Of a DNA stretch of 64,000 bases, positions 34,800 to 50,786 are shown in pieces. Both the position numbers and the translations under genes were made by a program. Positions within the stretch are counted from its first letter, which is position 1; the number at the start of each line of letters is the position of its first letter. Source of the stretch: Ramlibacter lithotrophicus. GTDB lineage: Bacteria; Pseudomonadota; Gammaproteobacteria; Burkholderiales; Burkholderiaceae_C. Below the pieces are notes generated by a model, which worked only from the letters and a program-made list of their open reading frames with translations, did not search any database and was not told where the DNA came from. The stretch covers positions 124,001 through 188,000 of the forward strand of contig NZ_VTOX01000005.1 in NCBI RefSeq assembly GCF_012184415.1, read 5' to 3'.

Positions 34800-35531
34800 T
34801 CAACGGACGAGGACCAGCTTCTGGTACAGCCCGCCGTAATAGGTTTGTTTGGTGATGGACGCCGGGGCCAGGTGCGCGGGCAGGAACGCCTGCACCTCGT
34901 TCTCCCACAGGTCCATCGCATAAGGTTCGAGCTTGCGGAACACACCCGTCATCAGCAGGCGCAGCGGATGCCAGCGCACCGGCAGGTGGTAGTCGACGAT
35001 CACGATCCGGCCGCCCGGGCGCACCACGCGCATCGCTTCCGCGAGCGTGGCGCGGCGCACCGCTTCCGGCTGCTCGTGCAGCAGGAAGAACAGCAGCACC
35101 TGGTCGTAGGAGGCATCGGGACACGCCAGCGCGGAAGAATCGCCCTGCAGCAGCACGATCCGGTCGTCCGCCGGCAGCTTGGCCGCCAGGTTCTTCAACT
35201 GCACCGGCAGGATGTCCACCACGTCCAGGCTCGCGCCGGGCGCCAGCCGCCGCGCGAGGCGCGGCGTCAGGTTGCCGTAGACGCAGGCCAGTTGCAGCGT
35301 CTGGCCGGTCACGCTCTCACCCAGTTCGGCGAGGGCCGCGTCGCGCAGCCGCCCATAGTTGCCGAACAGGATGAGGTTGACCAGCCATTCCCGCTCGAAC
35401 ACATGGACGGCGTTGGGGTGGACGTACGCCCACCAGTAGACCTGTTCCAGGTACTTCGGGATGGGCAATGTCCGGGCCGGGGCCGAGGCCGGGCCTCGGA
35501 ACCCGGCGTCGGCGACTGCGGGCGGCGGCAT
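34800..35531 (-). CDS. rquA: Rhodoquinone biosynthesis protein RquA
   Basis: A 243-residue methyltransferase-like protein. The N-terminal signature YWWAYVHPNAVHVFEREW, then WLVNLILFGNY, is characteristic of RquA, and the usual glycine motif I of class I methyltransferases is replaced by LACVYGNLTPR. Other family blocks are VVDILPVQLKNL, LLFFLLHEQPE and IVDYHLPVRWHPLR. In studied bacteria RquA converts ubiquinone to rhodoquinone, the low-potential quinone that feeds fumarate reductase, using SAM as amino donor. Its place directly upstream of frdABCD fits that role. It lies 31 bases after the small cytochrome c gene. Confidence 0.9.
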   Translation of the reverse strand: MPPPAVADAGFRGPASAPARTLPIPKYLEQVYWWAYVHPNAVHVFEREWLVNLILFGNYGRLRDAALAELGESVTGQTLQLACVYGNLTPRLARRLAPGASLDVVDILPVQLKNLAAKLPADDRIVLLQGDSSALACPDASYDQVLLFFLLHEQPEAVRRATLAEAMRVVRPGGRIVIVDYHLPVRWHPLRLLMTGVFRKLEPYAMDLWENEVQAFLPAHLAPASITKQTYYGGLYQKLVLVR

Positions 35532-35562: not shown

Positions 35563-35889
35563 TTACTGCGCGAGGATGAACTTGATCAGGTTGGGCAGCG
35601 AGCCCTTGTCCTTCACGGCCTTGTGGTCCTCTTCGCTGCCGTCGTCCATCTTGACCTTCGGGCTCTTGGTCAGGAAGTCGGTCAGCTTGGCTTCGGCGTC
35701 GGCCTTGCCCTTGTACTTGGCGGCGACCTTCTGGTACGACGGACCCTTCTTGGACTTGTCGACGGCATGGCACTTCGTGCAGCCGTCGCCCTTCAGGACC
35801 TTGTTGGCGGCATCCGCGTCCTGCGCGACGGCGGGCAGCGAGAACGCCAGGGCGGCAACTGCGGTGGAAAGGAGGGGGAGGACTTTCAC
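35563..35889 (-). CDS. Small periplasmic monohaem cytochrome c (copy A)
   Basis: A 108-residue class I cytochrome c with a signal peptide (residues 1-22, ending PAVAQD) and one haem site, GCTKCHAVDK. The conserved GP after the haem and a KYKGKADAE block follow. It starts at a GTG with AGGAG eight bases upstream, which decides the start. It is clearly paralogous to the gene at 47097-47426 (shared CHAVDK, KYKGKADAE and SP.V blocks). It is the first gene of a run with rquA and frdABCD and probably shuttles electrons in the periplasm. Confidence 0.9.
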   Translation of the reverse strand: MKVLPLLSTAVAALAFSLPAVAQDADAANKVLKGDGCTKCHAVDKSKKGPSYQKVAAKYKGKADAEAKLTDFLTKSPKVKMDDGSEEDHKAVKDKGSLPNLIKFILAQ

Positions 35890-35966
35890 TTTTTGAGCTC
35901 CTGTAGTGAAGGTTGAGACTGTCCTGTGTGACGCGAGAATGGTGCGCCCGCCCCCCGGGAGCGGCG

Positions 35967-35980
35967 TTGACAAAGGTCAA
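35967..35980 (-). promoter_or_regulatory. FNR/Anr-like box upstream of the cytochrome c-rquA-frd operon
   Basis: TTGACAAAGGTCAA is a dyad matching the FNR consensus TTGAT-N4-ATCAA except for C/G at the inner positions. Flanking bases extend the symmetry (GCGG/CCGC). Its centre is about 85 bases from the start codon of the cytochrome gene; at -41.5 it would place the transcript start near 35932. Confidence 0.7.
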
Positions 35981-36062
35981 CCGCTCCGGGAACAGCCGGG
36001 TTCGCGCAGCAGCCAATTCGGTGTAGGTAGCGCATTGGTCCACACCGCCGAGGGCGCCCAGG

Positions 36063-36096
36063 AAAAAAGGCCAGTGGGCTCGCGCGCACTGGCCTT
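36063..36096 (-). terminator. Rho-independent terminator after mtrB
   Basis: On the minus strand GGCCAGTG and CACTGGCC form a perfect 8-base stem with a 10-base loop, followed by a run of six T. It lies 40 bases after the mtrB stop and separates the mtr genes from the frd operon. Confidence 0.85.
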
Positions 36097-36135
36097 GCAT
36101 CGGACCGCGGTTTCCACGGCGGTACGGCCGGGGAG

Positions 36136-38352
36136 CTACTGCCAGCGCCGCGTGTACGTGAGGCCCAGGAAGCTGACGTTCTGCAGCGTCTTGTAGTTCA
36201 GCGTCGTACCATCCGAATACACGAACGGAACGCCGTTGTAGTTCCAGGCCCAGTCGGTCCAGCGCGAGCGCTGGTGCCCGACGTCCAGCCGCACCGCCGA
36301 CTGCTTGTCGATGGCGTACTTGGCGAACAGGCGCAGCTGCGTCTGGCGGAACACGATGTCGGGCAAGCCGCCGGTGGCGCCCAGCAGCGCCGCGCTGCCC
36401 AGGTCGGCACTCGCATCGAGCGTCTGGCCGTACTTGCTGCGATCCTGCAGCCAGCTGACATTGCCGCCCACCTCCAGCTTCTGGACGGTCCCGGTGACGC
36501 CCACCCCGAACATCGTCGCCGTGTTGTCCAGGGCCAGGAAGGCGCCGCCGGGGCGGACCTGGTCGAGCTCCTGCCGTCCGCGCGAGACGAACCCGTTCAC
36601 GTTCCAGTTGTCGTTGATCGCGTAAGTGGCATCCACGTCGACCTGGTCCATGTCGGACCGGCGCACGCCATAGGCGCTCGGCATGTCGTAGCGGTCACGG
36701 CCGAATTCGGCGCCGGCCTGCAGCGACAGCGCCTCGGCCGGCTGCCAGTCGGCGCTCACGCGCACCTTCTCGCGCCGGCGGTCGGCGAGGTTCACCGGGA
36801 ACACGCCGTTCTGGAAGAACAGCACGGAGGCCGGATCGGCTTCCTCGGTGACACCACGGCCGCCGACGTCGCGCAGCCAGTGCGAGCCATCGCGGCGGCT
36901 GCCTTCCAGCGCCACGGCGCCGCTCAGCGTCTCGGTCATGCGGCGGCGCAGTTCGGCCTTGAGCCCGGTCTCCTCGGTCTTCAGCCGCAGCGCGGTGATG
37001 CCGGAGGTGGCGCTGGTCTCGGTGAAGGTGCGGCGATCGACCTGGTTGAACGTGCCGCTCAGGGTGCCCTTGGTCTGCGGCGTGAACTGGTAGCCTGCGG
37101 CGAGGCGCCCGCGCAGCGTCGACAAGGGGTACTGGCGGTTCGTGAAGCCGTTGGCGAAGGAGCCGGTGCCGACCAGTCCGTACTGCGCCAGCGGCGTGCT
37201 GTCGTCGCGGTACTCGTAGCGCAGGCTGCCGTTCACCGACAGCTTGGGCAGCGGGCGCGAACTGAGGCCCACCTGCGCCAGCGTCGTGGACACCTTGCCG
37301 CCCAGGTCGCTCACGCCTGCCGGTGCGGCAAAGCCGGCGGCGGCGAAGTTCTGGTGCTGCGTGGCGCGCGAATAGGCCAGCTTGAAATTGGCTCGCGTGG
37401 TCTGCGAGAACGCGTAGGCGCCCGTGAGATCGACCTGGTGCGCCTGGTTGTCGGGCGGCAGCGCCACGGGCTGGTTCAGCACGCCTTGCAGGCCCGTCGT
37501 GACCGGCAGCAGCGCGCCGAGCGGGTTGTAGAGACTGCCGGAGACGCCAGGCACGAGGGCGCCGAGGCTGTTGCGGTAGAACGAGCCGTAGTAGCCAAGC
37601 GAGAGGCTGAACCTCTGGGCCGCGTACGTGAGACGCGCTTCCGCCTGGCTGTGGTTGGCGTCGATCGGCTCGGGCAGCATCAGCACGGCCGAGCCGACCT
37701 CGGCGCTCGTCGTGCCGCGGCAACCCGGTGCGACGAACGTCGGGCACGCCATGCCGATGCCGAACAGGCGCGAGCCCTCCTTGTTCTCGGTCGAGAGGCT
37801 GGCATCGAACTGCAGCCGGTCGGAGATCACCTTCTGGAAACCGAGGCCAAGGCTGGTGCGCTTGACCTTGAGGTCGACGTCGCCGCCGGTGCCGGGTCCG
37901 CCGGGCAACGGAACGACGCGCGGCGCGAAGGAGCCGGCGTCGACCAGTCCGGTATCGGGGACGAACGGGTCGTATCGCCGCAGTTCGCCATAGCGCGCGG
38001 AGAACGACCAGTCGCCCTGCCGCTTCCACAGGACGTCCAGCTCCCGATTGTTGGTCAGCAGATCGCTGCCGGAGAAGCGCGCGAGCGTCCCGGCCTTGTC
38101 GTCGCGTCGGTAGTAGTCGACACCGAACACGCCGAAGACAGTGCTGCCGGGGCGCAGGCCGCGATACTGGTCATACAGCGAACGGTCGTCGCGGCCTTCG
38201 TTGATGAAGCCGATGCCTGCGCTGACGGAGCCGTCGACGACCTGCGCCTGTTCCTTGTCCTGCGCAGCCGCGGAACCGAAGGCCGCCAGCAAGGCGAGGG
38301 TCAGGAGGGTGGGACGGGCCCGGAGGGTGGGGACGAGGGTTTTCGTGCTCAT
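36136..38352 (-). CDS. mtrB: MtrB/PioB-family decahaem-associated outer-membrane porin
   Basis: A 738-residue outer-membrane beta-barrel with a signal peptide (ending GSAAAQDK) and long alternating strands through a C-terminal aromatic residue region (LTYTRRWQ). Content and genetic order after the decahaem MtrA identify it as the MtrB/DmsF/PioB family: a barrel that holds MtrA and lets electrons cross the outer membrane. The length compares with about 700 in Shewanella MtrB. The CxxC seen near the N-terminus of some Shewanella MtrB proteins is absent. Last gene of the island's mtr run. Confidence 0.9.
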   Translation of the reverse strand: MSTKTLVPTLRARPTLLTLALLAAFGSAAAQDKEQAQVVDGSVSAGIGFINEGRDDRSLYDQYRGLRPGSTVFGVFGVDYYRRDDKAGTLARFSGSDLLTNNRELDVLWKRQGDWSFSARYGELRRYDPFVPDTGLVDAGSFAPRVVPLPGGPGTGGDVDLKVKRTSLGLGFQKVISDRLQFDASLSTENKEGSRLFGIGMACPTFVAPGCRGTTSAEVGSAVLMLPEPIDANHSQAEARLTYAAQRFSLSLGYYGSFYRNSLGALVPGVSGSLYNPLGALLPVTTGLQGVLNQPVALPPDNQAHQVDLTGAYAFSQTTRANFKLAYSRATQHQNFAAAGFAAPAGVSDLGGKVSTTLAQVGLSSRPLPKLSVNGSLRYEYRDDSTPLAQYGLVGTGSFANGFTNRQYPLSTLRGRLAAGYQFTPQTKGTLSGTFNQVDRRTFTETSATSGITALRLKTEETGLKAELRRRMTETLSGAVALEGSRRDGSHWLRDVGGRGVTEEADPASVLFFQNGVFPVNLADRRREKVRVSADWQPAEALSLQAGAEFGRDRYDMPSAYGVRRSDMDQVDVDATYAINDNWNVNGFVSRGRQELDQVRPGGAFLALDNTATMFGVGVTGTVQKLEVGGNVSWLQDRSKYGQTLDASADLGSAALLGATGGLPDIVFRQTQLRLFAKYAIDKQSAVRLDVGHQRSRWTDWAWNYNGVPFVYSDGTTLNYKTLQNVSFLGLTYTRRWQ

Positions 38353-38360
38353 GCTCGGCC

Positions 38361-39335
38361 TCAGCGGAAAAAGAGCCGCGGCGTCGGGTTGGTCGCCGAG
38401 GGGTTGTTCGTGCCGTGCACCTGCGTGTGGCAGTTCATGCAACTGCGTCCCTGCCACATGTTGACCACGTTCTTGCCGCTGCTCGTCGCGCCGATCGCGG
38501 ACGAAAGCTGGCCCGGAGCGGCCGGCGGGAACACGCCCGGCTGTCCGCCCACCGCACCGACGCCGCCCGCCACGTGCGGGGTGTGGCACTGCTGGCACAG
38601 GACCGGGGCGCGCGCCTTCAACATGCCTTGTACGGTGCTGCCGTGCGGGTTGTGGCAGATGGCGCAGTCCTCGTTGACAGGCTCGTGCCCGAACACGAAC
38701 GGGCCGCGCTTTTCGGCGTGGCAGCTGTAGCAGGTCGCGTTGATGCTGTCGCGCTTGGCCAGCTTCGGGCCCGCGGAGCCGTGCACGTTGTGGCAGTCGG
38801 AACAGGTCATCTTGCCTTCCGGCACCGGATGGTGCGAGGGCTTCGCGATCTGCGTGCGCTGCTCCTTGTGGCAGGTGATGCACATCTCCGCCTCGCTCTT
38901 CCTGGCGAGGATCTTGTCGTGGTTGGCATGGATCTTGTGGCAGCTCGAGCAGGCCAGGTCGGCCGTCTCGTGCTGGCTGCCGCCCCACATGGCGCGCCGG
39001 AAGTCCTTCTGGTGGCAGGTCAGGCAGGCCGCGTTGCGTTCGCCGACCGGGGTCGGGGCGGCCTTGGTGAACATGATGTCCGGCGGCGGCCGCTTCGCGA
39101 CGTTCGCCGGCTTCTTCACGTGCGTCGGGCTCGCCCCGTGGCAGGTGATGCAGGTCGGCGTGCGCGAGTCCGTGGCCACCGCGTGCGCGCTGCGGCTCAT
39201 GTCCGGCATGTCGTCCGCATCATGGCACTCGATGCACGCCTCCGACGCCGCGGCGTCGCGCGGCGCGCCCATTGCGATCCCGGTCAGGCCGAACAGGCCC
39301 AGGGCGATGACCGCCATCGCTCGCTTGATTTGCAT
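38361..39335 (-). CDS. mtrA: MtrA/DmsE-family periplasmic decahaem cytochrome c
   Basis: A 324-residue secreted protein with a signal peptide (FGLTGIAMGAPRD) and exactly ten CXXCH haem motifs (CIECH, CITCH, CLTCH, CSSCH, CITCH, CSDCH, CYSCH, CAICH, CQQCH, CMNCH) spread evenly from residue about 34 to 305. Shewanella MtrA has 333 residues and ten haems in the same pattern. The protein forms the electron wire inside the MtrB barrel. It lies eight bases upstream of mtrB and 79 downstream of the first mtrC-like gene, so these probably form one operon. Confidence 0.94.
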   Translation of the reverse strand: MQIKRAMAVIALGLFGLTGIAMGAPRDAAASEACIECHDADDMPDMSRSAHAVATDSRTPTCITCHGASPTHVKKPANVAKRPPPDIMFTKAAPTPVGERNAACLTCHQKDFRRAMWGGSQHETADLACSSCHKIHANHDKILARKSEAEMCITCHKEQRTQIAKPSHHPVPEGKMTCSDCHNVHGSAGPKLAKRDSINATCYSCHAEKRGPFVFGHEPVNEDCAICHNPHGSTVQGMLKARAPVLCQQCHTPHVAGGVGAVGGQPGVFPPAAPGQLSSAIGATSSGKNVVNMWQGRSCMNCHTQVHGTNNPSATNPTPRLFFR

Positions 39336-39414
39336 TCGATCTCCTCGGGCCAGCGGCCCTCTCAGGCGATTCGCCGGCGCCCGTCCCTCCCGGCCGGGCG
39401 CCGGACCGTGTTTC

Positions 39415-42018
39415 CTACTTCTGCCCGTGCACGATGTCCACGCCCATGAAGACCCCTGGGGCATGGCAGTCGCGGCACGTCTCCGGCGTCTGCAGCGACT
39501 GCGCCTGGGTGCGGTCGCCGAAGGAGGCGTTGCCGAAACTGGTGACGTGGCCGATCGCCTTGGGCGAGTCGTGGCAGGCGGTACAGGTGGCGGCCTGCGG
39601 CGAGACCACCAGCCAGCGCATCGGATCGGTGACGCCGGCCGGCTTGGCCACGACGGAGCCGACCTGGCCGCGGTCGATCATCCACGACTTGTTCACGTGG
39701 CACGAATCGCAGTTGAGGCCAACCTGCGGGTAGGCCACCTCGGCCGCGTAGTTCTCCGCGGCCGCCACGGCCGCCCCCGTGTAGCCACGGGCGCGAGCGG
39801 CGTTGGTGACCATCTCGGCGATGGTCTCGAACGTGCTGCCGGCGGCCACGGCCGTGCCGGCCGTGATCACGACCGTCGACGTTCCGCTGATCGTCACGCG
39901 CTGGTCGGCGAAGAACGTGCCAGCGGTGGTCAGGGCGCCGGCGTCGTTGAAGGCGCCCTGCACCGGGTTGCCGTGCGTGAACGGGAAGGTCCGCTTCGAG
40001 TTGCCGTGGATCCCGTGGATCATGCGCTTGAACTGGTAGGACTCGTTCAGAGCCAGGCCATTGGTCATGACCGTGGAGGACATGCGGTTCGGGTCATGGC
40101 ACAGCGCGCAGGCTTCCACGGTGTTGCGGGCGCCGCCGTGGAACGCATTGATCAGCGTGTTGGATCCGGAGGTGGTGCCCAGCGCGCCGTGGCAGACGTT
40201 GCACTTCTCGTTGGAGACGACCTGGCGCCGCGGCGTGAGCGTGCCGGTCAGGGCCACGTCGGCGTAGGTGTTCTGCACGACGACGTTGATCAGCTCGCGC
40301 GGAGCGACTTCCGGCCGCGGGTCGGTCGCCGCCTTCACCTGCAGGCGCGGCTCCTTGATCTGGCCGATCGTCAGGACGCGGCCGGTGCCCTGCACGACAT
40401 GCGTGGCCGTATCCGCCGGCAGCGGGATCGAGATCGTGTAGTGGTTGCTGCCATCGTTCGTCCCCTTGTAGGCGAACACGTTGGCGCCGCTGCCGCCGTT
40501 GTTGTACGACGTGAACTCGGTCACCCCGAGCGGCTGGCCGGCCATGCTCGGATACGCGACGTACAGGCGCAGGTTGCCGAACTTCGTGTTGCTGGAGCAG
40601 GCGGTGGTGGCGCCGCTGCCCGTGCAGTCGGAAGTCACCAGGTTGTAGGCCGTGCCGTTGGCCGGGTTGGACAGGAAGTACCTGACGGTGACCGCGCGCG
40701 CCGCCGCATCGTAGACGGCGCTCTCGATGTTCATCTTGTACAGCGCGCCGTTTTCCTCGTTCTGGTTCCAGTGCACGCGCTCGGGCGAGATCGCGTTGCC
40801 CGGCACGTGGCAGCCCTGGCAGGCGCTGCTGGGCATCTGGGTGGCCGCTGCGTTCGGGTCGCGGTTGCCGTTGAGCACGAAGTGGGTGTTGTACCAGTCG
40901 GAACCCGGATTGGCGGCATGGCAGGTCAGGCAGGCGTCGCGGCTGACGCGGGTCTTCCAGTTGTCGCCCTGCGGCGTCTTCGGGTTGGCGCCGGTGTGGC
41001 ACGCGGTGCAGTTGCGCAGGTCCTGCGGGAAGCCGACCTCGGAGTAGTCGTGCATGCCGTTGCCGTAGCCCCAGATCACGTAGCGCTCCCCGCCGCGGCC
41101 GGCCTCGAGCTCGCGCTCGAGCAGGCGTCCGGCGTGGATCTTGTGCACCATGGTGGACAGCGTCAGCACGTTGCCGCTGTTGGCGTCGGTCGTGCCCGGG
41201 TTGTGGCACAGCACGCAGTACTGGACATCGACGCGCCCGCCGCCATGGATGGCGAGACGTTCGTGACAGCCGTTGCACTGCGTGACGTCGGCCATGACGC
41301 GTGTCTGCGACGGGTCGGTCACCGGGACGGAATTGCCGGCGGCATCGAACTTGAAGTCGTAATACGGATTGACCCGCACCACTTCGCCCGCCGCGTTCGT
41401 GTACGACAGCTGCAGGGCGATCCTGTGGGTGCGGTCAGGCTCGAACGCGACGCCGCTGGTCTGCGCCGGGTTCCTGATGTCGGTGCGGAACGTGTATGTG
41501 TAGTAGCCGTCAGGATTCAGCACGAGCTGCTGCGCCGCCAGGGCGGGATCGGTCTGCTTGCTGTCGGTCGTCGCCTGGCGCGCGCTCGCGAGCACCGGGC
41601 GCCCGTTCGGACCTACCGTGGCGGTGGCGTTCTCCGTGCGATAGATGTAATTGACCCACTGGTCAGGGTTGCCGCTGGTACCTGGAACCAGCTTGGCGAT
41701 CGCGACGCTGATGTCGGCGAGCTTCAGACCAGTGACTGCGCGCGCATTCGAAAAAACCGCGAAATTCACCTTGGGTGCGCCGCTCGCGACGCTGACCGCC
41801 GGCACGCCCGCCTGCTGCACGACGGCGAAGGATGCGGATGAGTTGGTCGCGGTGTCGTTGGCCGCCGAGGCCGCCGCGCTGGCGATCGCCTGGCTGACCG
41901 CCGACCCGCTGGGCGGGGTGGGGCTCACTGGCGTGTCGCCGCCGCCTCCTCCGCCGCCGCACCCCGCGATAGCAAGCGCGAACATCAGCGCTGCACTCCA
42001 GTGAACCCACTTCTTCAT
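39415..42018 (-). CDS. OmcA/MtrC-family surface decahaem lipoprotein (copy 1)
   Basis: An 867-residue lipoprotein (lipobox LAIAGC, Cys about residue 20, then a Gly run) with ten CXXCH motifs. Five lie at about 249-402 and five at about 607-849, separated by a beta-rich domain of about 200 residues and preceded by another, the four-domain layout of MtrC/OmcA. It would accept electrons from MtrAB and pass them to external acceptors such as metal oxides or humics, or work in reverse. It is longer than Shewanella MtrC (671). It shares a promoter block with copy 2 upstream. Confidence 0.93.
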   Translation of the reverse strand: MKKWVHWSAALMFALAIAGCGGGGGGGDTPVSPTPPSGSAVSQAIASAAASAANDTATNSSASFAVVQQAGVPAVSVASGAPKVNFAVFSNARAVTGLKLADISVAIAKLVPGTSGNPDQWVNYIYRTENATATVGPNGRPVLASARQATTDSKQTDPALAAQQLVLNPDGYYTYTFRTDIRNPAQTSGVAFEPDRTHRIALQLSYTNAAGEVVRVNPYYDFKFDAAGNSVPVTDPSQTRVMADVTQCNGCHERLAIHGGGRVDVQYCVLCHNPGTTDANSGNVLTLSTMVHKIHAGRLLERELEAGRGGERYVIWGYGNGMHDYSEVGFPQDLRNCTACHTGANPKTPQGDNWKTRVSRDACLTCHAANPGSDWYNTHFVLNGNRDPNAAATQMPSSACQGCHVPGNAISPERVHWNQNEENGALYKMNIESAVYDAAARAVTVRYFLSNPANGTAYNLVTSDCTGSGATTACSSNTKFGNLRLYVAYPSMAGQPLGVTEFTSYNNGGSGANVFAYKGTNDGSNHYTISIPLPADTATHVVQGTGRVLTIGQIKEPRLQVKAATDPRPEVAPRELINVVVQNTYADVALTGTLTPRRQVVSNEKCNVCHGALGTTSGSNTLINAFHGGARNTVEACALCHDPNRMSSTVMTNGLALNESYQFKRMIHGIHGNSKRTFPFTHGNPVQGAFNDAGALTTAGTFFADQRVTISGTSTVVITAGTAVAAGSTFETIAEMVTNAARARGYTGAAVAAAENYAAEVAYPQVGLNCDSCHVNKSWMIDRGQVGSVVAKPAGVTDPMRWLVVSPQAATCTACHDSPKAIGHVTSFGNASFGDRTQAQSLQTPETCRDCHAPGVFMGVDIVHGQK

Positions 42019-42102
42019 CTTTTGCTCCTGGATCGGACGGACCGATCAAATCGGGGCCGCAGCTGCCGGCCCCACACTTCTCCGGGATGGACCCGTCAAG
42101 GG

Positions 42103-42168
42103 ATTCTCCGGGAGCGGACCGCGATGCGAAATCGGAAGGCGCTCAAGATTGTCCTAGGAATAATCTGA
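42103..42168 (-). promoter_or_regulatory. Promoter block of mtrC copy 1 (shared motif)
   Basis: This 66-base block is similar to the one at 45116-45181. On the minus strand it reads TCAGA-N2-ATTCCTAGG, then AAT-N-TTGA and TTCCGAT, and 45 bases after CCTAGG it has GAGAAT, a possible -10 element. Proximal edge is 85 bases from the start codon. The rest of 42019-42341 holds only the terminators of copy 2 and no gene. Confidence 0.6.
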
Positions 42169-42259
42169 TCCGTGTAGCTGCGATGGCGGATGCGTAGCGC
42201 GCCGCCAACATTCCGGGATGCGCCGGTTTCCGGATCGGACCGACCAAGCCTTCGAAAAG

Positions 42260-42313
42260 CACGAAGCCGCCCCAGGCGGCTCCGTGCCAAAAGGAAACCG
42301 GCCCGCGGGCCGG
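42260..42313 (-). terminator. Two tandem terminators after mtrC copy 2
   Basis: On the minus strand, CCGGCCCGCGGGCCGG (42298-42313) is followed by TTTCCTTTT, and then a second hairpin, CACGGAGCCGCC with its complement (42260-42286), is followed by CTTTTCG. They separate mtrC copy 2 from copy 1, which therefore needs its own promoter. Confidence 0.8.
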
Positions 42314-42341
42314 CTCCTCTCATGTCACCCGCGGAGCGGGA

Positions 42342-44963
42342 TCACTTGTACGCATGCGCCTTGTCGACACCAAGTGCGGTACCCGGTGCGTGGCAGCCTT
42401 CGCAGGCTTCGAACACCTTGCCGCCGTACAACAGGTCGTTCTGCGTGAAGTTGCCGAACGCGCCGCCGCCGATGTTCTTGACGTGCGTCTGCACCGACTT
42501 CGCATCGTGGCAGGTCGTGCAGGTGGCCACCTTCGGCGAGAGCACCATCCAGTCGAGCATGTTGGTCTTGCCGGTCGGCTTGAACACGACGGTGCCGAGC
42601 ACGCTCTTGTCCTGCTTCCAGGAGTCGTTCACGTGGCAGTTCGAGCAGGACTTGAGGGCGCCCGGATAGGCGACTTCGGCCGTGAAGTTCAGCGTCTCGC
42701 CAGGGTACTGGTCGGCGCAGGTTGCCACGCCGATGCTCGGGGCACCGGCCGTCTTGCTCGTGCCGTCCTTGTTGTATTCACCGCCGAGTTTCATGCAGTG
42801 CGTGAACGGATAGTTGCGCTTGGCGACGTAGTGGATGCCGTGGACGAAGCGCTTGGCCTGGTAGGACTCGTGCAGGAACGACGAGGTCGCCGCGTTCGGG
42901 ATGGACGTCAGGCTGTCTCCGACCACGGGCGCCGTCGAGCCGTCCGCCATCAGCGTGTAGCTGCCCGCCTGGTTGGCGTTGTGGCAGATCGCGCAGCCGT
43001 CGGCGTTGTTGCGCACGCCCTTGTGGAAGCCGACCGTCTGCGAGGACATCGGCACGCCGAGGAACGCGTGGCAGTTGTTGCAGCTGTCGTTGCTGACGAT
43101 CGCGCGGCGCGGCGTCGAGGAGTTGGCGCCGGTGGCGATGTTGACGTCCTTGATCGCGTTCTTCACCGGCACATAGGCCAGGTCGGAGTTCTGCGTCGGC
43201 GGCACGGCACCGATCGGATTGCGGGTGACCGCATCCAGGCGGCGTTCGGCGACCGAGCCGATGATCATCACGCGGGCGTTGCCCTTCGAGCCGGCCGGGA
43301 TCGTCACGTCGGCCGTGTAGCGACCCGTCGCGTCCGCCACGCCGCGGTACGCAGCGTAGCTGGCCGAGGCGGTCACGTCGTCCAGCGTCACGCCGGCCAG
43401 GGTTTCCGTGGCGACGTAGACCGTGAACGTGCCGAACTTGTCCTGCGGCTTGCCGGGCACCGCCGGCGGGAACACCGCGTCCCAACGGTAGTTGGTGTTG
43501 CAACCGACGATGGAGGTGCCGGCGGAGTCCGTCGTGGCGGCGCCGGAGCAGCCTTCGCGCAGGTCGTAGGCCGCGCCTGTCTTCGGATTGACGATGGCGT
43601 ACTTCACCGACAGCAGGCCCGTCGCGGTGGCCGTGGCCGCTTTCTTCAGCGACACGCTCTCGATCTTCGCTTCGTAGTTCGCCGTGTTGGCCAGTTCCTG
43701 GACCCAGTGCACCTTGTCGGCGCTCAGCGGGCTGGAGGGACCGTGGCACGAGGCGCAGGTGGAGTTGCCGATGGCCGCGGCCGAGGCGCCCAGCTTGAGC
43801 GTCGTCACGTGGGTGGCGTAGAAGCCGCTGGTCGTGCCGGTCTGGTGGCAGCTCAGGCAGGCTTCCTTGCTCGGGACGCTCTTCCAGTTGTCGCCCTGCG
43901 GCGTCTTCGGGTTGGCTCCGTCATGGCAGGCCACGCAGTTGCGGATCGGCTGCGGGAAGCCCACCTCGCTGTAGTCGTGCTTGCTGTTGGAGTTGCCCCA
44001 GATGGTGTAGTTCTCGCCTTGCTCGTGCAGCAGCCGGCCGGCGTGGATCTTGTGCACCATCGTCGACAGCGTCAGCACGTTGCCGCTGTTGGCGTCGGTC
44101 GTGCCGGTGTTGTGGCACATCACGCAGTACTGCGTGTCGACGCGGCCGCCGCCGTGCAGCGCCAGCTTGTCGTGGCAGTTGTTGCAGGTGGCGATGTCGA
44201 CCATCTTGCGCGCGGTGGAGGCAACCGACTTGCCATCGGCGCCGACCGTGAAGTCGAAGTACGGATTCACGCGCACCAGCTCGCCGGCCGCGTTCTTGTA
44301 CGACAGCTGGATCGCGACGCGGTGCGTGCGATTGGGCTCGAACGCCACCCCGTTGGTGGAGTACTTGGTCGTGCCCGAAGTGGCCGTCCAGGCCGGATCC
44401 TTGAGGTCCGTGCGGAAGGTGTAGGTGTAGTAGCCGTCCGGGTTGTAGACCAGCTGCCCGGCGGCCAGGGTCGCGTCGGACTGCTTCGGATCGGTGGTGG
44501 CCTGCAGCGCCTGCGGCAGCACCGCGGCGCCGTTCGGGCCCACGGTAGCCGTGGCCACCTCGGTGCGATAGACGTAGCTCACCCACTTGTCGGGGTCGCC
44601 GTTGCTGCCGGGCACCAGTTTCGCGATCGCGAAGCTGACGCTGCCCAGCGCCACGCTCGACACCGGCTTGCCGTCGGAGAAGACGGCAAAGTTCACCTTC
44701 GCCGGGCTGGCGATGGTGAACGCCGGAACGCCGTTCTGCTGCAGCACGGCGAACGACGCGGTCGAATTGACCGACGTGTCGTTGGACGCCTGCGCACCGG
44801 CCGTCGCCAGCGCCTGAGCCACCGACGCCGCCGGCGGTGGCGGCGTGCCGCCATCGGGCGGTGGAGTGACGACGTCACCGCCGCCCCCGCCGCCGCACCC
44901 GCTCAACGCGAGGACCAGCGCGGCGAACGCCGCCGCGCTGCTGCGAACAAGAAATTTTTTCAT
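42342..44963 (-). CDS. OmcA/MtrC-family surface decahaem lipoprotein (copy 2)
   Basis: An 873-residue lipoprotein (lipobox LALSGC followed by a Gly run) with ten CXXCH motifs, five at about 261-406 and five at about 627-854. It is strongly similar to copy 1 throughout (for example GGRVD.QYCV.CHN.GTTDANSG and NPKTPQGDNWK), so the two are tandem paralogues. Differences concentrate in the N-terminal and middle beta domains, which could change the partner or acceptor. Its start is set by the signal peptide and a GGAG upstream. It has its own promoter block and double terminator, so it is transcribed on its own. Confidence 0.93.
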   Translation of the reverse strand: MKKFLVRSSAAAFAALVLALSGCGGGGGGDVVTPPPDGGTPPPPAASVAQALATAGAQASNDTSVNSTASFAVLQQNGVPAFTIASPAKVNFAVFSDGKPVSSVALGSVSFAIAKLVPGSNGDPDKWVSYVYRTEVATATVGPNGAAVLPQALQATTDPKQSDATLAAGQLVYNPDGYYTYTFRTDLKDPAWTATSGTTKYSTNGVAFEPNRTHRVAIQLSYKNAAGELVRVNPYFDFTVGADGKSVASTARKMVDIATCNNCHDKLALHGGGRVDTQYCVMCHNTGTTDANSGNVLTLSTMVHKIHAGRLLHEQGENYTIWGNSNSKHDYSEVGFPQPIRNCVACHDGANPKTPQGDNWKSVPSKEACLSCHQTGTTSGFYATHVTTLKLGASAAAIGNSTCASCHGPSSPLSADKVHWVQELANTANYEAKIESVSLKKAATATATGLLSVKYAIVNPKTGAAYDLREGCSGAATTDSAGTSIVGCNTNYRWDAVFPPAVPGKPQDKFGTFTVYVATETLAGVTLDDVTASASYAAYRGVADATGRYTADVTIPAGSKGNARVMIIGSVAERRLDAVTRNPIGAVPPTQNSDLAYVPVKNAIKDVNIATGANSSTPRRAIVSNDSCNNCHAFLGVPMSSQTVGFHKGVRNNADGCAICHNANQAGSYTLMADGSTAPVVGDSLTSIPNAATSSFLHESYQAKRFVHGIHYVAKRNYPFTHCMKLGGEYNKDGTSKTAGAPSIGVATCADQYPGETLNFTAEVAYPGALKSCSNCHVNDSWKQDKSVLGTVVFKPTGKTNMLDWMVLSPKVATCTTCHDAKSVQTHVKNIGGGAFGNFTQNDLLYGGKVFEACEGCHAPGTALGVDKAHAYK

Positions 44964-45115
44964 ACCTGACTCCATGGAAACACGACAAGCCTCTGACCGA
45001 ACCCGCTGTCCCGCGCCGCCAGTTGCTGGCGCGCCGCGGTCAATCCGAATCGAGTTCACTCCATCTCTTCGCGCTGTTCCGACCCACTGCGGGTCATGAT
45101 CCGAGCTGTGCAACG

Positions 45116-45181
45116 ATTCTCCCGAAGGGGGTCCGGCGCCGATATCGGAACCGCTTCAAAATTCACCTAGGAATCGTCTGA
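45116..45181 (-). promoter_or_regulatory. Promoter block of mtrC copy 2 (shared motif)
   Basis: Same arrangement as at 42103-42168: TCAGA-N2-ATTCCTAGG, AAT-N-TTGA, TTCCGAT, and GAGAAT exactly 45 bases beyond CCTAGG. In the 43-base core 30 positions are identical without gaps. It lies about 150-218 bases upstream of the start codon. I see no gene and no other clear signal in the 44964-45388 gap. Confidence 0.6.
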
Positions 45182-45388
45182 GGAGGGAACCTTGGCGCGA
45201 TCGCTACGCTCGAAGGGCGTTCGCTGCCAGTGAGTCGTGGTCCGCTGCAGGCATGGACAGCCTGGCCGCCCTGAGGGGCCAGGCGAGTCAGGGCAACGGC
45301 CGAGCGAGGCGCGACGCGAAAAAACCACTACCCGAGCGAAGCCGTCGGCCAATGGCCAGGAACGGCGGCGAACGGACGGCGGCCGCCG

Positions 45389-45637
45389 CTACGGGCGCAG
45401 CAGCGGCGTGATCAGCCCGCCGATCACGGTGGAGGCGGTGTAGAGCACCACGACGGCCGGCACGGCCGCCACCGCGGCCTTGATCATGAACCAGAACATG
45501 GTGCTGAACTTCATGTTGAGGTCCGCGACGTAGACGGGCAACGTGCGGACGGCGTCGGGCGACACGGCGCCGCACCGCGGGCAACTCGCGGCGGTGTCGC
45601 TGATGCTGGCCTTGCATTCGGGGCATTCGATGAGCAC
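45389..45637 (-). CDS. Small zinc-ribbon membrane protein
   Basis: An 82-residue protein with a zinc ribbon at the N-terminus (CPECKASISDTAASCPRCG, two CxxC pairs) and one C-terminal transmembrane segment (AAVAAVPAVVVLYTASTVIGGLI). Similar proteins are common but of unknown role. It is in the same direction as the NapC-like pair, 36 bases after the second, so it may belong to that transcript. It carries no haem motif. Assignment as coding is supported by the Cys pairs. Confidence 0.75.
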   Translation of the reverse strand: MLIECPECKASISDTAASCPRCGAVSPDAVRTLPVYVADLNMKFSTMFWFMIKAAVAAVPAVVVLYTASTVIGGLITPLLRP

Positions 45638-45673
45638 GGGAATTCCTTTCGAGGATCGGGGGATCGCGCCGTC

Positions 45674-46270
45674 CTAGTGACGCGCGGGCTCCTTCGCGAA
45701 CATCTCCTGCGGGCCGGGACCCTCAGGCTCCTTGTGCGACATCGCGAAGTGGCATTCGATGCAGGTCAACCCGTCGAGTCGCCCCTTTTCGTGGCGCTTC
45801 AGCGCCTTCTCGCTCTGCCTGTCGGGATCCATCTTGGCCGTGGTGTGGCAGTGGCGGCACTCCCTGGAGTCGTTCTCCTTCATGTATACCCACACGCGCC
45901 GGGCCAGCTCGAAACGCTTGGCCTCGAACTTCTCGGGCGTGTCGATCGACCCGGTAAAGTGGCCCCAGTAGTCGGCCCACAGGCCCAGCTTCGCCAGGTA
46001 GTTGGGCACGTACGCGTGCGGCACGTGGCAGTCGTTGCACGTGGCCCGCACGCCGCTGCGGTTGACGTCGTGCACCGCGCCCTTGTGCTCCTTCTGCAAC
46101 TGCTTCATCTCGTGGCACGAATCGGCACAGAACGCCTCCGAGTTCGCGTACACCATGAACGAGCCGACCGACGCGAACGCCACGGCGCCAAGCGCGAGGC
46201 CGGCGACCAGCACCAGCAGGCTGCCGGGGCCGGCGCCCCAGGACCGGAACTTGCGATAAAGCTTGAGCAT
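45674..46270 (-). CDS. NapC/NirT-family tetrahaem cytochrome c (copy 2)
   Basis: A 198-residue protein with one N-terminal membrane anchor (LLVLVAGLALGAVAFASVGSF) and four haem motifs: CADSCHEM (a CX3CH variant at haem 1), CNDCH, CRHCH and CIECH. NapC/NirT/CymA proteins oxidise membrane quinol and pass electrons to periplasmic partners. Length is close to CymA (187). It is a tandem paralogue of the gene at 46304-46927, 33 bases away. As CymA feeds MtrA in Shewanella, a similar role is the obvious inference here. Confidence 0.92.
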   Translation of the reverse strand: MLKLYRKFRSWGAGPGSLLVLVAGLALGAVAFASVGSFMVYANSEAFCADSCHEMKQLQKEHKGAVHDVNRSGVRATCNDCHVPHAYVPNYLAKLGLWADYWGHFTGSIDTPEKFEAKRFELARRVWVYMKENDSRECRHCHTTAKMDPDRQSEKALKRHEKGRLDGLTCIECHFAMSHKEPEGPGPQEMFAKEPARH

Positions 46271-46303
46271 CTCGGCTTCTCCTCGTGTTCGTGTGGCAGG
46301 CGC

Positions 46304-46927
46304 CTACAGGATCGCGCTGCGCGGGATCAGGCTGCGGTCGACCTCGAGCTCCTGCGGGCCGGGACCGCCCTCGGGCACCTTGTGCGTGATGCCGAAGTGG
46401 CAGTCGACGCAGGTGAGCTTCTCCCGCTTGGCCTTCGCGTGCCTGGCCACGGCCTGGGGCGACTGGCGGTCCGGGTCCATGTTCGCGGGGTTGTGGCAGT
46501 GGCGGCACTCGCGCGAGTCGTTGCCCTTCATGTAGGTCCAGACGCGCTGCGCCATCTTCGGCCGCTGGGCATCGAACTTTTCCTTGGTATCCACCGCCTT
46601 GGTCACGTGGTGGCTCCAGAGGTCGTTCAGCGCGCCCATCTTCGCGATGTAGAGGGGGATCGGCGAGTGCGGGACGTGGCAGTCGACGCAGGTCGCGCGC
46701 ACGCCCGTGCGGTTGCGGTCGTGCGACGACCCCATGTACTCCAGGTTGGAGTTGTTGGCCATCTCGTGGCAGCTGGTCGCGCAGAACGGCTCCGTGCTGG
46801 TGTAGACCATGGTCGTGCCGAACACGCTGAGGCCGGCCACCCCGAGGAAGAATCCGGCCACCAGGACCATGAAGGCCCGCTTTCCGGCGGCCCATCTGGC
46901 CAGCCTTGCAAGTGCTCTCGGGGGCAT
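46304..46927 (-). CDS. NapC/NirT-family tetrahaem cytochrome c (copy 1)
   Basis: A 207-residue membrane-anchored cytochrome with an N-terminal helix (FMVLVAGFFLGVAGLSVFGTTMV) and haem motifs CATSCHEM (CX3CH at haem 1), CVDCH, CRHCH and CVDCH. The His/Met pattern following haem 1 (CHEM) is as in NapC-type quinol dehydrogenases. It shares the RNRTGVRATC…DCHVPH and NDSRECRHCH blocks with copy 2. Having two NapC-like proteins may allow entry from different quinones or delivery to different partners. Confidence 0.92.
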   Translation of the reverse strand: MPPRALARLARWAAGKRAFMVLVAGFFLGVAGLSVFGTTMVYTSTEPFCATSCHEMANNSNLEYMGSSHDRNRTGVRATCVDCHVPHSPIPLYIAKMGALNDLWSHHVTKAVDTKEKFDAQRPKMAQRVWTYMKGNDSRECRHCHNPANMDPDRQSPQAVARHAKAKREKLTCVDCHFGITHKVPEGGPGPQELEVDRSLIPRSAIL

Positions 46928-47096
46928 GTTCGCTCCTTCGCTTCCGGGAGCGCGGGCTTCGGCGCGCGGGCATGCGCCCGCGGCGGGCGCCGGCGCTCGT
47001 GACTCTGGGCCGTGTGACGGCGCACGGCGCCGCCATGCAGCGGCGCCCGCGCGCGGGTCACGGGGCTACGGGCTTACGAGGCGCAGGGAACGGCCG

Positions 47097-47426
47097 CTAC
47101 AGCGACAGGATCCACTGCACCACGTTCTTGATCTCGGCAGCATCCTTGGTCTTGAGCGCGCGGTGCTCTTCCTTCTTGCCGTCGATCTCGACCATGGGAC
47201 TGGTGGTGAGGTGCTTGGTGAGCTTGTCCTCGGCGTCGGCCTTGCCCTTGTACTTCTTGGCCGTTTCCTTGAACGGAGGCCCGTCCTTCTTCTTGTCGAC
47301 CGCGTGGCACTTGAAGCAGTCGCTCTTCTTCAGCACGGCCTGGGCGCTGTCGGCGTCGGGCGCGGCCTGGGCGGCCAGGGCAGTCATCAGCCCGCAGCCG
47401 ATGGCCAGGGTGGTCAGCAACTTCAT
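47097..47426 (-). CDS. Small periplasmic monohaem cytochrome c (copy B)
   Basis: A 109-residue class I cytochrome c with a signal peptide (LMTALAAQAAPD) and one haem motif (DCFKCHAVDK). It is a close paralogue of copy A at 35563-35889, sharing KYKGKADAE, the GPP turn after the haem and the C-terminal WIL/FIL ending. It lies inside the island between the c/b fusion gene and the NapC pair, so it may carry electrons between these and MtrA. Start chosen at MKLLTTLAIG, ten codons after an upstream Met. Confidence 0.9.
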   Translation of the reverse strand: MKLLTTLAIGCGLMTALAAQAAPDADSAQAVLKKSDCFKCHAVDKKKDGPPFKETAKKYKGKADAEDKLTKHLTTSPMVEIDGKKEEHRALKTKDAAEIKNVVQWILSL

Positions 47427-47488
47427 ACAGCGTCTCCTTTGAAAAAATTCAAACACCTCGTTGCGTTGCCACCGCCCCGAAACCGCTG

Positions 47489-47523
47489 TGCCGGCACCTG
47501 CGCACGGGGCGCGGGTGCCGGCA
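47489..47523 (-). repeat. Inverted repeat after the c/b fusion gene
   Basis: TGCCGGCACC and GGTGCCGGCA form a perfect 10-base stem around a 15-base loop, 57 bases beyond the fusion gene's stop. There is no T-run, so it may be a factor-dependent terminator or processing hairpin. Confidence 0.45.
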
Positions 47524-47579
47524 GCGGCAGGGCGGATCCTGCTTGGACCGTGACTGTTCTTGTTAACGACCGTCCGCGA

Positions 47580-49616
47580 TCAACCTCCGAAGAAGAATCC
47601 GATGCCCACCAGCGTCAGCAGGGTCAGGCCGATGGCGATCAGCGTGAAGCCAAGGAGCTTCGACAGCCTCAGCCTCGTGGGCGACGGCGCGTCGACCAGG
47701 TGGCGTTCCAGCTCGCCGCTGGCGACCAGGCGCTGGTACTCCAGGGCGTGTTCCTTCTTGAACTCCTCGAGCGGCACGCTGCCCGTGAACATCACCACGT
47801 CGACCGGGAACTTGTCGGGGCGGAAGTGGTTGTTGAAGAAGTGCACCGTGAAGAGGAACACCACCGCCAGGAACGCCTCCTCGCCGTGGAAGATCGACGC
47901 CACGTTGAAGATCCAGCCGGGCAGGAAGCTGCCGAAGAAGCTGGGCAGCCACATCACCAGGCCGCTGACGCCGATGATCGTCACCCCCCAGAAGGGCGCC
48001 CAGTAGTCGAACTTCTCCCAGTACGTCCAGCGGTCGAAGGTCGGGCGCGGGCCCTTGCCGAAGAACCACCGGAACATGCCGATGATGTCCTCCAGGTCCT
48101 TCAGGTTCGGCACCATGGAGTTGGGGCCGAAGATCTCGAAGGTCTTCCACTGGCGCCCGATGCGGAACAGCATGTAGAACAGGTGCCAGAAGAAGATGCC
48201 GGCGAAGATCACGGCCGCGGTGCGATGGATCACGCCGGTGACCTGCGGGCCGCCGAAGAACTTCATGATCGCGGGCGCCCATGGCACGTCGGGATAGAAC
48301 AGCGGCATGCCGGTCAGGGTCAGCACCATCAGGCTCAGCGCGAACAGCAGGTGGGCGACGCGCCAGGTGGCGGTGAAGCGCTGGTACTGCTTGCCGTGCA
48401 GCTGCGCCGGCACCTCGTCGATGCGAACGTGCTGGTGGCCGCCGCCGCGGGCCTTGCGTTCCTTCCATTCCCGGTAGAACCACAGGATCGTGTGCAGCCA
48501 GAAGAACCCGAAGGTGCCGATCAGTAGGCCGCTCATGAGCTGCCACGCGGCCCACACCTGCGGATAGCGGTTGAAGTCGCCCGCGTCCGCGTGCGGCTGG
48601 AAGCTCGCGAAGCCCTTCGAAACGTCGGGCAGGCCCTTCTTCGGGTTGTGGCAGGAGCGGCAGGTCTCCAGCCGGTTGTCCGGATGCGCCTTCGATTCCG
48701 GGTTGTCGACGCGGACGATGTCGTGGCTGCCGTGGCAGTCGAAGCACTTGGCGGTGTAGGCGTAGCCGAGCGTGCTGACCTTGCCGTGGAACGTGTCCTT
48801 GTAGGTCTCGAACTGCTTGGTGTGGCACTCGCCGCACTGCGCCGTCACCGTGAGCTTGAAGGGGTCGCTGGAGGTGCCGGCCACCGCATGCGCCGTGTGG
48901 CAGTCCGAGCAGACGGCCGCATCGGCCAGCATCTTCTTGGCGTTCTCCTGTCCATGGACCGACTGCTGGTAGGTCTCCAGCTGGTCGGTGTGGCAGGTGC
49001 CGCAGTTGGCCGAGATGCCCAGGCGGAACTGCGTGTACTCGGGCGTGTTCTTCGCCGGGACGTTGAAGCTGTGCGTGTCGTGGCAGTTGGAGCACGAGGC
49101 GTTCGGCTTCGTCTTGTCGTCCGCGTTCGGGCGCGCGTGGAACGACTTGCGGTAGGCCTCGATGTTCCTGGCGACCACGCCCAGGCGCGGCCGCTCCTCG
49201 GTCCGGCCGCGCTTGACGGTCTGGTCCCAGAGATCCTGGTGGCACGACGCGCAGTCGACTTTCGCGAGGGGCTGGGCCGGGTCACGCGCGTGGACATTGC
49301 CCTTCTCGGCGTTGTCCTTGATGTCCGTGTGGCAGGCGACGCACTCCATCCGCGCGTGCACGCCGGCCTGGAACTTCTGCGGGTCGACGACGTGCAGCGC
49401 CCGCGGCTTGCCCGCGGGCGTCGGAACCTCCAGCTTGCCCTTCTTGCCGTCGTGGCAGGTCAGGCAGGTTGCGTTGTCGAGCTTCGCCTCAACCGCTGGC
49501 GCCGGGGACTGGGCAGCGGCTGGCGCCGCCAGTCCGCCCAGTCCGAGGCAGGCGAAGACCAGACCCGCGGAGACCGCGGCCCGGCGCAGGCGTGCAAAGT
49601 GGCCCTCGTGATGCAT
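47580..49616 (-). CDS. Nine-haem cytochrome c fused to a cytochrome b561-type membrane domain
   Basis: A 678-residue protein. A signal peptide (LGGLAAPAAAQ) leads into a periplasmic domain with nine CXXCH motifs from residue 51 to about 325 (CLTCH, CVACH, CASCH, CSNCH, CGTCH, CSDCH, CGECH, CFDCH, CRSCH). From about residue 362 there is a membrane domain with several helices carrying His candidates for b-type haem (WLHTILWFYREW, WRVAHLLFALS, VIHRTAAVIF, FFWHLFYM, TVHFFNNHF), like formate dehydrogenase gamma or b561 proteins. It looks like a one-piece quinol dehydrogenase. First gene of the island's minus-strand run, after the NarL-like regulator. Confidence 0.88.
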   Translation of the reverse strand: MHHEGHFARLRRAAVSAGLVFACLGLGGLAAPAAAQSPAPAVEAKLDNATCLTCHDGKKGKLEVPTPAGKPRALHVVDPQKFQAGVHARMECVACHTDIKDNAEKGNVHARDPAQPLAKVDCASCHQDLWDQTVKRGRTEERPRLGVVARNIEAYRKSFHARPNADDKTKPNASCSNCHDTHSFNVPAKNTPEYTQFRLGISANCGTCHTDQLETYQQSVHGQENAKKMLADAAVCSDCHTAHAVAGTSSDPFKLTVTAQCGECHTKQFETYKDTFHGKVSTLGYAYTAKCFDCHGSHDIVRVDNPESKAHPDNRLETCRSCHNPKKGLPDVSKGFASFQPHADAGDFNRYPQVWAAWQLMSGLLIGTFGFFWLHTILWFYREWKERKARGGGHQHVRIDEVPAQLHGKQYQRFTATWRVAHLLFALSLMVLTLTGMPLFYPDVPWAPAIMKFFGGPQVTGVIHRTAAVIFAGIFFWHLFYMLFRIGRQWKTFEIFGPNSMVPNLKDLEDIIGMFRWFFGKGPRPTFDRWTYWEKFDYWAPFWGVTIIGVSGLVMWLPSFFGSFLPGWIFNVASIFHGEEAFLAVVFLFTVHFFNNHFRPDKFPVDVVMFTGSVPLEEFKKEHALEYQRLVASGELERHLVDAPSPTRLRLSKLLGFTLIAIGLTLLTLVGIGFFFGG

Positions 49617-50400: not shown

Positions 50401-50499
50401 TTGCCCTCCAAGGCCCTTACCACAATGTTCGTCACCGAGCCGCCGCGCGGGCCAGTCTCAGGGTGGTTGATAGTGTCTTGGCAGGGTGGCGGGGCACCG

Positions 50500-50513
50500 T
50501 TGATCTACGTCAA
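50500..50513. promoter_or_regulatory. FNR-like box between the regulator and ccmA
   Basis: TTGATCTACGTCAA matches FNR consensus TTGAT-N4-ATCAA at nine of ten half-site positions. For the regulator its centre would be -41.5 from a start near 50465, with CACTAT (50470-50475) as a poor -10. Toward ccmA, GATAAT at 50559-50564 would make it about -62. No other signal is obvious in the 50401-50786 gap. Confidence 0.65.
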
Positions 50514-50558
50514 CGGCAACGCGACAGTGCGACCGGGCGGGGGCCGGCGTGCTCTGGG

Positions 50559-50564
50559 ATAATG
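50559..50564 (+). promoter_or_regulatory. Possible -10 element for the ccm operon
   Basis: GATAAT differs from TATAAT by one base. It is about 225 bases before the ccmA start codon, and no good -35 lies 17 bases upstream, which would suit an activator-dependent promoter such as one helped by the FNR-like box. Confidence 0.35.
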
Positions 50565-50786
50565 CGCTGCCCCTGGCTGACGGGGGCGCCATGGTCCCTC
50601 GCGCCGACAGACGGGCCCATGAGGCGGGCCGGCACCAGAACAACAGCGCGCGTCCATGAGGGCCACCGTGCATTGCCTTGTGCACCGTGGCCTCCCGCGG
50701 CGATCCCGATGCGGTTGACATTCCTCAACGGGGTCGCGTCCGTCCTGTTGGAAACCACTGTTTGCCTCCCGACAATCGATCCGTCA

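Follow-up and report, generated by a model that had tools for sequence, protein, structure and literature searches.

In a 64,000-nt stretch of the genome of Ramlibacter lithotrophicus (contig NZ_VTOX01000005.1, positions 124,001 to 188,000 of the forward strand; hereafter the window, in whose numbering its genes are placed), the genes of an MtrCAB-type conduit for extracellular electron transfer (EET) adjoin rquA, the gene for rhodoquinone biosynthesis, and frdABCD, encoding a quinol:fumarate reductase, and the mtr and rquA units are each preceded by an FNR-type box. Taking these features together, we propose, at a probability of roughly one half, that the island is induced under anaerobic conditions, supplies itself with a low-potential quinol and uses that quinol on acceptors outside the cell or on fumarate. 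Rhodoquinone, a rare low-potential membrane carrier, may power electron export when oxygen runs out, and we regard the rhodoquinone and fumarate reductase genes as more informative than the mtr cluster itself.

The initial annotation described the minus-strand interval 35563–49616, which ends with cytA, a monohaem cytochrome c gene (35563–35889; PF00034, 21.6 bits, cut-off 21.3). On the same strand, cytA is the first gene of a putative unit that continues for five genes beyond that interval, with rquA followed by frdA, frdB, frdC and frdD. RquA (34800–35531) exceeded the cut-off of the NCBIfam equivalog model NF038261 (298.8 versus 175 bits), and the frd genes encode all four subunits of a frd-type quinol:fumarate reductase, namely the flavoprotein FrdA (32992–34791; PRK09231, 1032 bits, cut-off 854; TIGR01176, 942 bits, cut-off 932.7), the iron-sulphur subunit FrdB with Fer2_3 and Fer4 domains (32247–32999), and the membrane subunits FrdC (31840–32250; PF02300, 142.5 bits, cut-off 24.2) and FrdD (31475–31843; PF02313, 131 bits, cut-off 25). 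Also unlisted had been a zinc-ribbon gene inside the interval, and a NarL-type regulator gene and cytochrome c maturation (ccm) genes just outside it.

Within the interval itself, Pfam and NCBIfam models bore out every gene that had been named there on the minus strand: mtrB, mtrA, two mtrC, two NapC-like genes, two small cytochromes and a c/b fusion, the b-type part of the last falling just under its cut-off. The porin MtrB (36136–38352) scored 423 bits with PF11854 (MtrB_PioB, cut-off 23) and 416.6 bits with TIGR03509 (cut-off 240). MtrA (38361–39335) scored 290 bits with TIGR03508 (cut-off 192) and matched chain A of PDB 6r2q at E 1.4e-62, the MtrA chain, which the structure table names otherwise. 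MtrC1 (39415–42018), the copy common to relatives with a single mtrC, resembled the OmcA and MtrF structures and scored 543 bits with TIGR03507 (cut-off 209), a model with which its paralogue MtrC2 (42342–44963) scored 486 bits. A motif count gave ten CXXCH each for MtrA, MtrC1 and MtrC2, and both MtrC proteins carry a lipobox by eye; an MtrB-type porin, a decahaem MtrA and a lipobox-bearing OmcA/MtrC-family protein thus stand side by side, by which an MtrCAB conduit is recognised. The predicted total of 49 c-type haems held (1+10+10+10+4+4+1+9), of which only 47 are CXXCH, the other two being CX3CH in the NapC-like proteins. A full inner-membrane-to-surface electron route in a betaproteobacterium, as had been suggested, is a prediction well supported by the families to which the proteins belong and by the conservation of gene order; outward flow and the placing of MtrC1 and MtrC2 at the surface are presumed.

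Mtr-type respiration in Shewanella uses menaquinol, and Shewanella CymA works with menaquinone; many Burkholderiales have ubiquinone only, with a potential ill-suited to iron oxides. We propose that at low oxygen an FNR/CRP-family regulator would switch on two putative units, regulator-cbcL-cytB-napC2-napC1-zinc ribbon-mtrC2-mtrC1-mtrA-mtrB and cytA-rquA-frdABCD. RquA would turn part of the ubiquinone pool (+110 mV) into rhodoquinone (−63 mV; PMC9814641, PMC11707229), which would bring electron donation by CbcL and NapC to a potential suited to iron oxides and enable FrdABCD to reduce fumarate. Rhodoquinol would give up its electrons at the inner membrane to CbcL and to the NapC pair, MtoD-like monohaem cytochromes would pass the electrons to MtrA within the MtrB porin, and the electrons would exit on MtrC1 and MtrC2 to minerals, humics or an electrode, with FrdABCD as the alternative sink. 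Rhodoquinone production has been reported for Rhodoferax ferrireducens (PMC6529003). In line with the proposal, no match to MenB in the window's genome exceeded the cut-off (best, 290 versus 342.7 bits), so classical menaquinone synthesis is unlikely.

Presence of rquA (over cut-off) and of mtrB went together in the genus and in the family. Among 60 genomes of the genus, 13 held both genes, 1 rquA only, 3 mtrB only and 43 neither (Fisher p = 1.4e-9, uncorrected for relatedness like those that follow); the corresponding numbers in a sample of 299 family genomes, which shares with the genus set the window's genome and three others, were 14, 6, 11 and 268 (p = 3.6e-13). Across the other families of the order, represented by 195 of 200 genomes, 2 held both, 13 rquA only, 17 mtrB only and 163 neither. 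The neighbourhoods followed the same division, with rquA lying close to an mtr, cbcL or napC gene at 10 of 14 loci in the genus (8 with mtrB), at 15 of 21 in the family and at 0 of 15 outside it. The first two counts leave out loci found through NapC (L083, L085, L089–L106), and some loci lie at contig ends (L140 and L171 among the unlinked ones; L151, L156 and L183 outside the family). None of the 15 outside loci has EET genes, so rquA does not in general come with this link, and a general connection of rquA with Mtr systems, which appeared nowhere in the order outside the family, was rejected.

The same loci bear on the possibility that rhodoquinone serves fumarate reductase only, with the Mtr genes adjoining rquA-frd as co-travelling anaerobic functions under FNR-type control and with CbcL and NapC using ubiquinol. 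Consistent with this, frdA stands beside rquA at 12 of 14 loci in the genus, and both the nearness of rquA to complex II and other respiratory genes (PMC5953543) and frdABCD adjoining Group 4 mtrCAB (PMC8805035) have been described. However, seven EET-linked rquA loci (L028, L080, L082, L087, L088, L138 and L144) have no frdA within 6 kb, and rquA therefore need not serve fumarate reductase alone; uncounted here are L162 and L085, which show no frd but reach contig ends, and L079, which has frdABCD. Outside the family, moreover, rquA lies beside frd genes at 2 of the 15 loci and beside EET genes at none. We consider a role confined to fumarate reduction somewhat unlikely.

In a tree of 50 RquA proteins, those linked to EET genes fell into two main groups, separated by unlinked ones that come mostly from other families; both the 50 rows and the 30 linked loci include the NapC-found L083, L085, L092, L093, L095 and L097. 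The two groups have opposite gene orders. Ramlibacter loci read rquA-frdABCD, which in the window follows mtrB as cytA-rquA-frdABCD, whereas Rhodoferax-type loci from metagenome-assembled genomes (L092, L093, L095 and L097, found through NapC searches) read cbcL-frdABCD-rquA. On this tree, the rquA-EET association appears either to have arisen more than once or to have been retained through losses. The presence of the link in both groups, together with a candidate rquA promoter box whose position and spacing are kept while the flanks drift, argues against an ordinary R. ferrireducens-type Mtr cluster whose nearness to rquA-frd is inherited synteny in a few lineages, devoid of functional meaning. 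That view has in its favour that the cluster type is already published (PMC6295460) and that the rquA link was found in one family only, and we consider it highly improbable.

The candidate control regions also count in favour of the proposed island. The pattern TTGAYNNNNRTCAA occurs twice in the window, giving its only two FNR-type boxes, against 0.05 expected in shuffles. One of them, TTGACAAAGGTCAA (35967–35980), lies ~78 bp before cytA, and the other, TTGATCTACGTCAA (50500–50513), ~100 bp upstream of the regulator gene, that is, ahead of the rquA unit and of the Mtr unit, respectively. In a class II FNR-type promoter, TTGAY-N4-RTCAA is found ~22 bp before the −10 element. Read on the minus strand, TTGACAAAGGTCAA is 22 bp from a −10-like CACCAT, and at all seven cytA-rquA loci the box keeps its place and spacing before cytA and is followed, 22 bp on, by a CACCAT-like hexamer. 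The alignment of these seven loci has a mean column identity of 56%, and its longest stretches without variation are the two halves of the box, GTCAA and TTGA, and the GGAG of the ribosome site. Among 20 further box-to-gene cases, hand-picked because cbcL, cyt-napC, rquA or the regulator gene has a box in front of it, a [GC]ACACT or TACGCT hexamer follows 21–23 bp on in 11 and is missing in 9.

Several observations weigh against the proposed island. Outside the family, rquA and mtrB are independent (p = 0.44), implying that rhodoquinone is no general need of Mtr systems. Inside it, three mtrB genomes of the genus are without rquA and 4 of the 14 rquA loci of the genus are unlinked to EET genes; the family sample has 6 unlinked loci among its 21 with rquA, and of its 25 mtrB genomes 11 are without rquA over cut-off, although one of the 11 (G166) has a truncated rquA match where a contig ends. 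On the RquA tree the 'linked' label has to change seven times, at least three of the changes being forced by well-supported branches, which implies several gains or losses, and a single origin of the link followed by losses may account for it. As to control, the hexamers CACCAT, CAACAT and CAATAT agree with TATAAT at only 3 of 6 places, and a box lies within 600 bp upstream at only 11 of the 30 EET-linked rquA loci (1 of 20 unlinked rquA loci; 2.9%, 261/9000, of random 600-bp windows from linked loci). The case for a lack of menaquinone draws on one gene, menB, of the classical route. Use of rhodoquinol by CbcL or by these NapC proteins is something we infer from the genes and their surroundings. 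Finally, the genome encodes RuBisCO (428.9 bits), which is compatible with lithotrophic electron uptake.

The presence of RuBisCO makes an inward, lithotrophic mode possible, in which Fe(II), a cathode or partner cells would feed the quinone pool through Mtr and CbcL/NapC for lithoautotrophy or fumarate reduction. For Fe(II) oxidisers, a role of MtoC and MtoD homologues in taking up electrons has been hypothesised, and expression of mtrCAB by R. lithotrophicus is reported for cocultures grown on Mn(II) (both PMC8805035). A low-potential quinone, however, would worsen uptake from high-potential Fe(II) or Mn(II) donors, FNR-type boxes would suit anaerobic reduction, and R. lithotrophicus alone is described as not oxidising Mn(II) (PMC9040806). 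A mainly inward island is, in our judgement, improbable.

The proposed quinol oxidation would fall partly to the tandem genes napC1 (45674–46270, minus strand) and napC2 (46304–46927, minus strand), which encode CymA-like quinol dehydrogenases of the NapC/NirT family (PF03264, 194.7 and 211.9 bits, cut-off 24.1) and lie below the cut-off of the NCBIfam napC_nirT model (178.9 and 181 versus 310.6 bits). In both proteins the motif of haem 1 is CX3CH (CADSCH, CATSCH) and the remaining three are CXXCH, so that neither has the four CXXCH of a strict NapC/CymA definition. NapC2 aligns to NrfH (2j7a) with one additional residue in the haem-1 motif; a predicted structure of NapC1 had a mean pLDDT of 53.6 and was not used. 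We suggest tentatively, at somewhat less than even odds, that CbcL and the CX3CH NapC pair receive their electrons physiologically from rhodoquinol made through the rquA of the island itself, which would be a form of EET without menaquinone in ubiquinone bacteria in which the CX3CH haem 1, beside the quinol site, would be part of the adaptation.

A scan of 399 family genomes listed 93 NapC matches, of which 90 were inspected and three fragments (G065, G246) left out. Haem 1 is CX3CH in 10 of the 90, eight of them in the tandem pairs of four genomes, the window's included, and the other two at L199 and L228. These last belong to another NapC subfamily, in which SH stands after the CX3CH of haem 1 in place of xM, and would be without the usual methionine. 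Photobacterium (L104, L105 and L106, ~9947–10642) also has a single haem-1 CX3CH NapC, divergent from a 12-haem protein and apart from the betaproteobacterial clade in the NapC tree; the idea that CX3CH is unique to the island was accordingly rejected. All 32 tandem rows formed one clade in that tree (support 99/99), whose sample is biased because many tandem loci were found by a motif-holding pattern and L199 and L228 were left out. The gene after napC1 (45389–45637, minus strand) encodes a small zinc-ribbon protein (Zn_ribbon_3, 25.8 bits, below the cut-off of 27) whose C-terminal part looks hydrophobic by eye, and recurs at all 14 betaproteobacterial loci that continue past napC1; that it matures the CX3CH haem, or is an assembly factor, is a guess. 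A third NapC of the window's genome, of the CX2CH kind, lies on contig C1 (L043, 8070–11058) near a multihaem Cytochrome_cB-family protein.

The other predicted entry point is cbcL/mtrH (47580–49616, minus strand), with nine CXXCH followed by a cytochrome b561-like membrane part that scored slightly under cut-off (Ni_hydr_CYTB, 27.0 versus 30.1 bits). CbcL homologues (E up to 1e-50) occur in 16 of 299 family genomes, the window's included, and a tblastn search for plasmid-borne cbcL gave no match at E up to 1e-40 among 72,556 plasmid records. The nine c haems and the putative membrane b-type part after them resemble the layout of Geobacter CbcL and of MtoC of Fe(II) oxidisers (CbcL layout, PMC6295460). 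Haem 5 is CX3CH (such as CGENCH) in 8 of 15 aligned relatives (L026–L032 and L036) and CXXCH in the window protein, a difference of one inserted residue at a single fixed haem.

The two small cytochromes lie, as the initial annotation had it, one at each side of the mtr and napC-like genes; a mirrored duplication they probably are not. CytB (47097–47426, minus strand; PF00034, 36.6 bits, cut-off 21.3) has as its best solved relative the MtoD structure 4xxl (E 3.5e-27), and CytA is connected to that structure only through its 46% identity with CytB. A cytB-like gene precedes the NapC gene in 27 of 28 tallied entries, in which some loci appear repeatedly, and cytA-like genes stand before cbcL, mtr genes or rquA in relatives. 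Judged from these positions, CytB is a likely partner of the NapC pair, although the pairing is only a tendency, since a cytB-like gene precedes cbcL at four loci outside the tally (L031, L033, L037 and L040).

Comparison with relatives, whose genes were named by BLAST to the window proteins (E up to 1e-5, a limit that more divergent neighbours would escape), revealed the identical order on one Ramlibacter contig from a metagenome-assembled genome (L090, the same as L165), namely cbcL-cytB-napC2-napC1-zinc ribbon-mtrC2-mtrC1-mtrA-mtrB-cytA-rquA-frdABCD, and partial versions elsewhere. L091 and L094 lack mtrC2 but have the entry genes together with mtrC-mtrA-mtrB; L030, L031 and L032 have only cyt-cbcL-mtrC-mtrA-mtrB, without NapC; and a single NapC accompanies mtrC, mtrA and mtrB in L079 and L085, and mtrA and mtrB in L088 (a cyt-napC module). 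Because relatives hold either module alone with mtr, the window is best described as one conduit to which CbcL and the NapC pair are joined as separate entry modules at the inner membrane, and the two parallel branches suggested at first thus extend to the entry modules and stop at a single conduit.

The three duplicated gene kinds noted originally are pairs of old paralogues and not recent copies. Identity within pairs is 45% for mtrC, 56% for napC and 46% for the small cytochromes, and MtrC2 is closer (73%) to a copy on another contig of its own genome (G000:C3), so that recent tandem duplication was rejected. Contig C3 holds two further MtrC-family decahaem genes (L041, 9591–12743; L042, 8684–11527), and in the surrounding 20 kb neither mtrA nor mtrB was recognised; only one MtrB match occurs in the genome. 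At L084, a frame resembling the C-terminal end of mtrB (10005–10517) lies between cyt-napC and rquA-frdABCD with no other mtrCAB part recognised, and the locus looks like a decayed island.

Much of this gene content has precedents. The mtr cluster of R. ferrireducens T118, known to us by description, likewise contains two CymA proteins (identity 55.5%; their CX3CH, close to the membrane anchor, is noted there), CbcL/MtrH, mtrABC and other cytochromes (PMC6295460). The window brings together the two CX3CH CymA-like proteins, CbcL/MtrH and mtrABC of that description and differs in its second mtrC and, as far as compared, in its own gene order. Group 4 mtrCAB (Baker et al. 2022, PMC8805035) is likewise betaproteobacterial, with MtoC/MtoD homologues, ccmA-I in some members and frdABCD often nearby, and R. 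lithotrophicus RBP-2 is listed there with ccm adjoining mtrCAB. With Shewanella MtrCAB and CymA the window shares the MtrA, MtrB and MtrC families and a NapC/NirT quinol dehydrogenase; beyond these it has CbcL, a tandem pair of CX3CH NapC proteins, MtoD-like carriers and rquA-frd.

Already published, then, are the core cluster (R. ferrireducens), frdABCD and ccm beside Group 4 mtrCAB, and rquA near complex II; new is the functional reading that joins them. The main text on Group 4 proposes frd for haem precursor supply or two-way EET and makes no mention of rhodoquinone or of a methyltransferase (PMC8805035); rhodoquinone is also unmentioned in the main text of PMC6295460. Among the matches listed in the open PMC literature, we found no paper joining rhodoquinone or rquA with Mtr or EET. 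For the two CymAs of R. ferrireducens it has been suggested that each may act on a different quinol (PMC6295460), and whether the gain of a low-potential quinone accompanied that of other genes has been called worth asking (PMC11707229); the locus bears on both questions. A locus in which FNR-type boxes of the same kind precede both rquA with its fumarate sink and the Mtr conduit offers an answer, simple and testable, to the question of the quinol that supplies the Rhodoferax/Ramlibacter conduit.

Upstream of cbcL lies the gene of a NarL/GacA-type response regulator (49753–50400, minus strand), whose best NCBIfam model is PRK10651 NarL (133.7 bits, below the cut-off of 250); a regulator 63–70% identical adjoins the cluster in L162, L163 and L174. 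Divergent from it on the plus strand are the ccm genes (50463–55416, the ccmA start being uncertain), among which ccmF (53218–55416) was recognised by profile score (CcmF_C, 415.5 bits) and ccmA, ccmB, ccmC and ccmE by eye in translated open reading frames. Besides those of the island, one other stop-to-stop frame of at least 50 codons in the window contains CXXCH. Elsewhere in the genome, contig C4 carries a multihaem cluster (L044, 8007–17861) with frames of 9, 4, 11 and 7 CXXCH within 10 kb.

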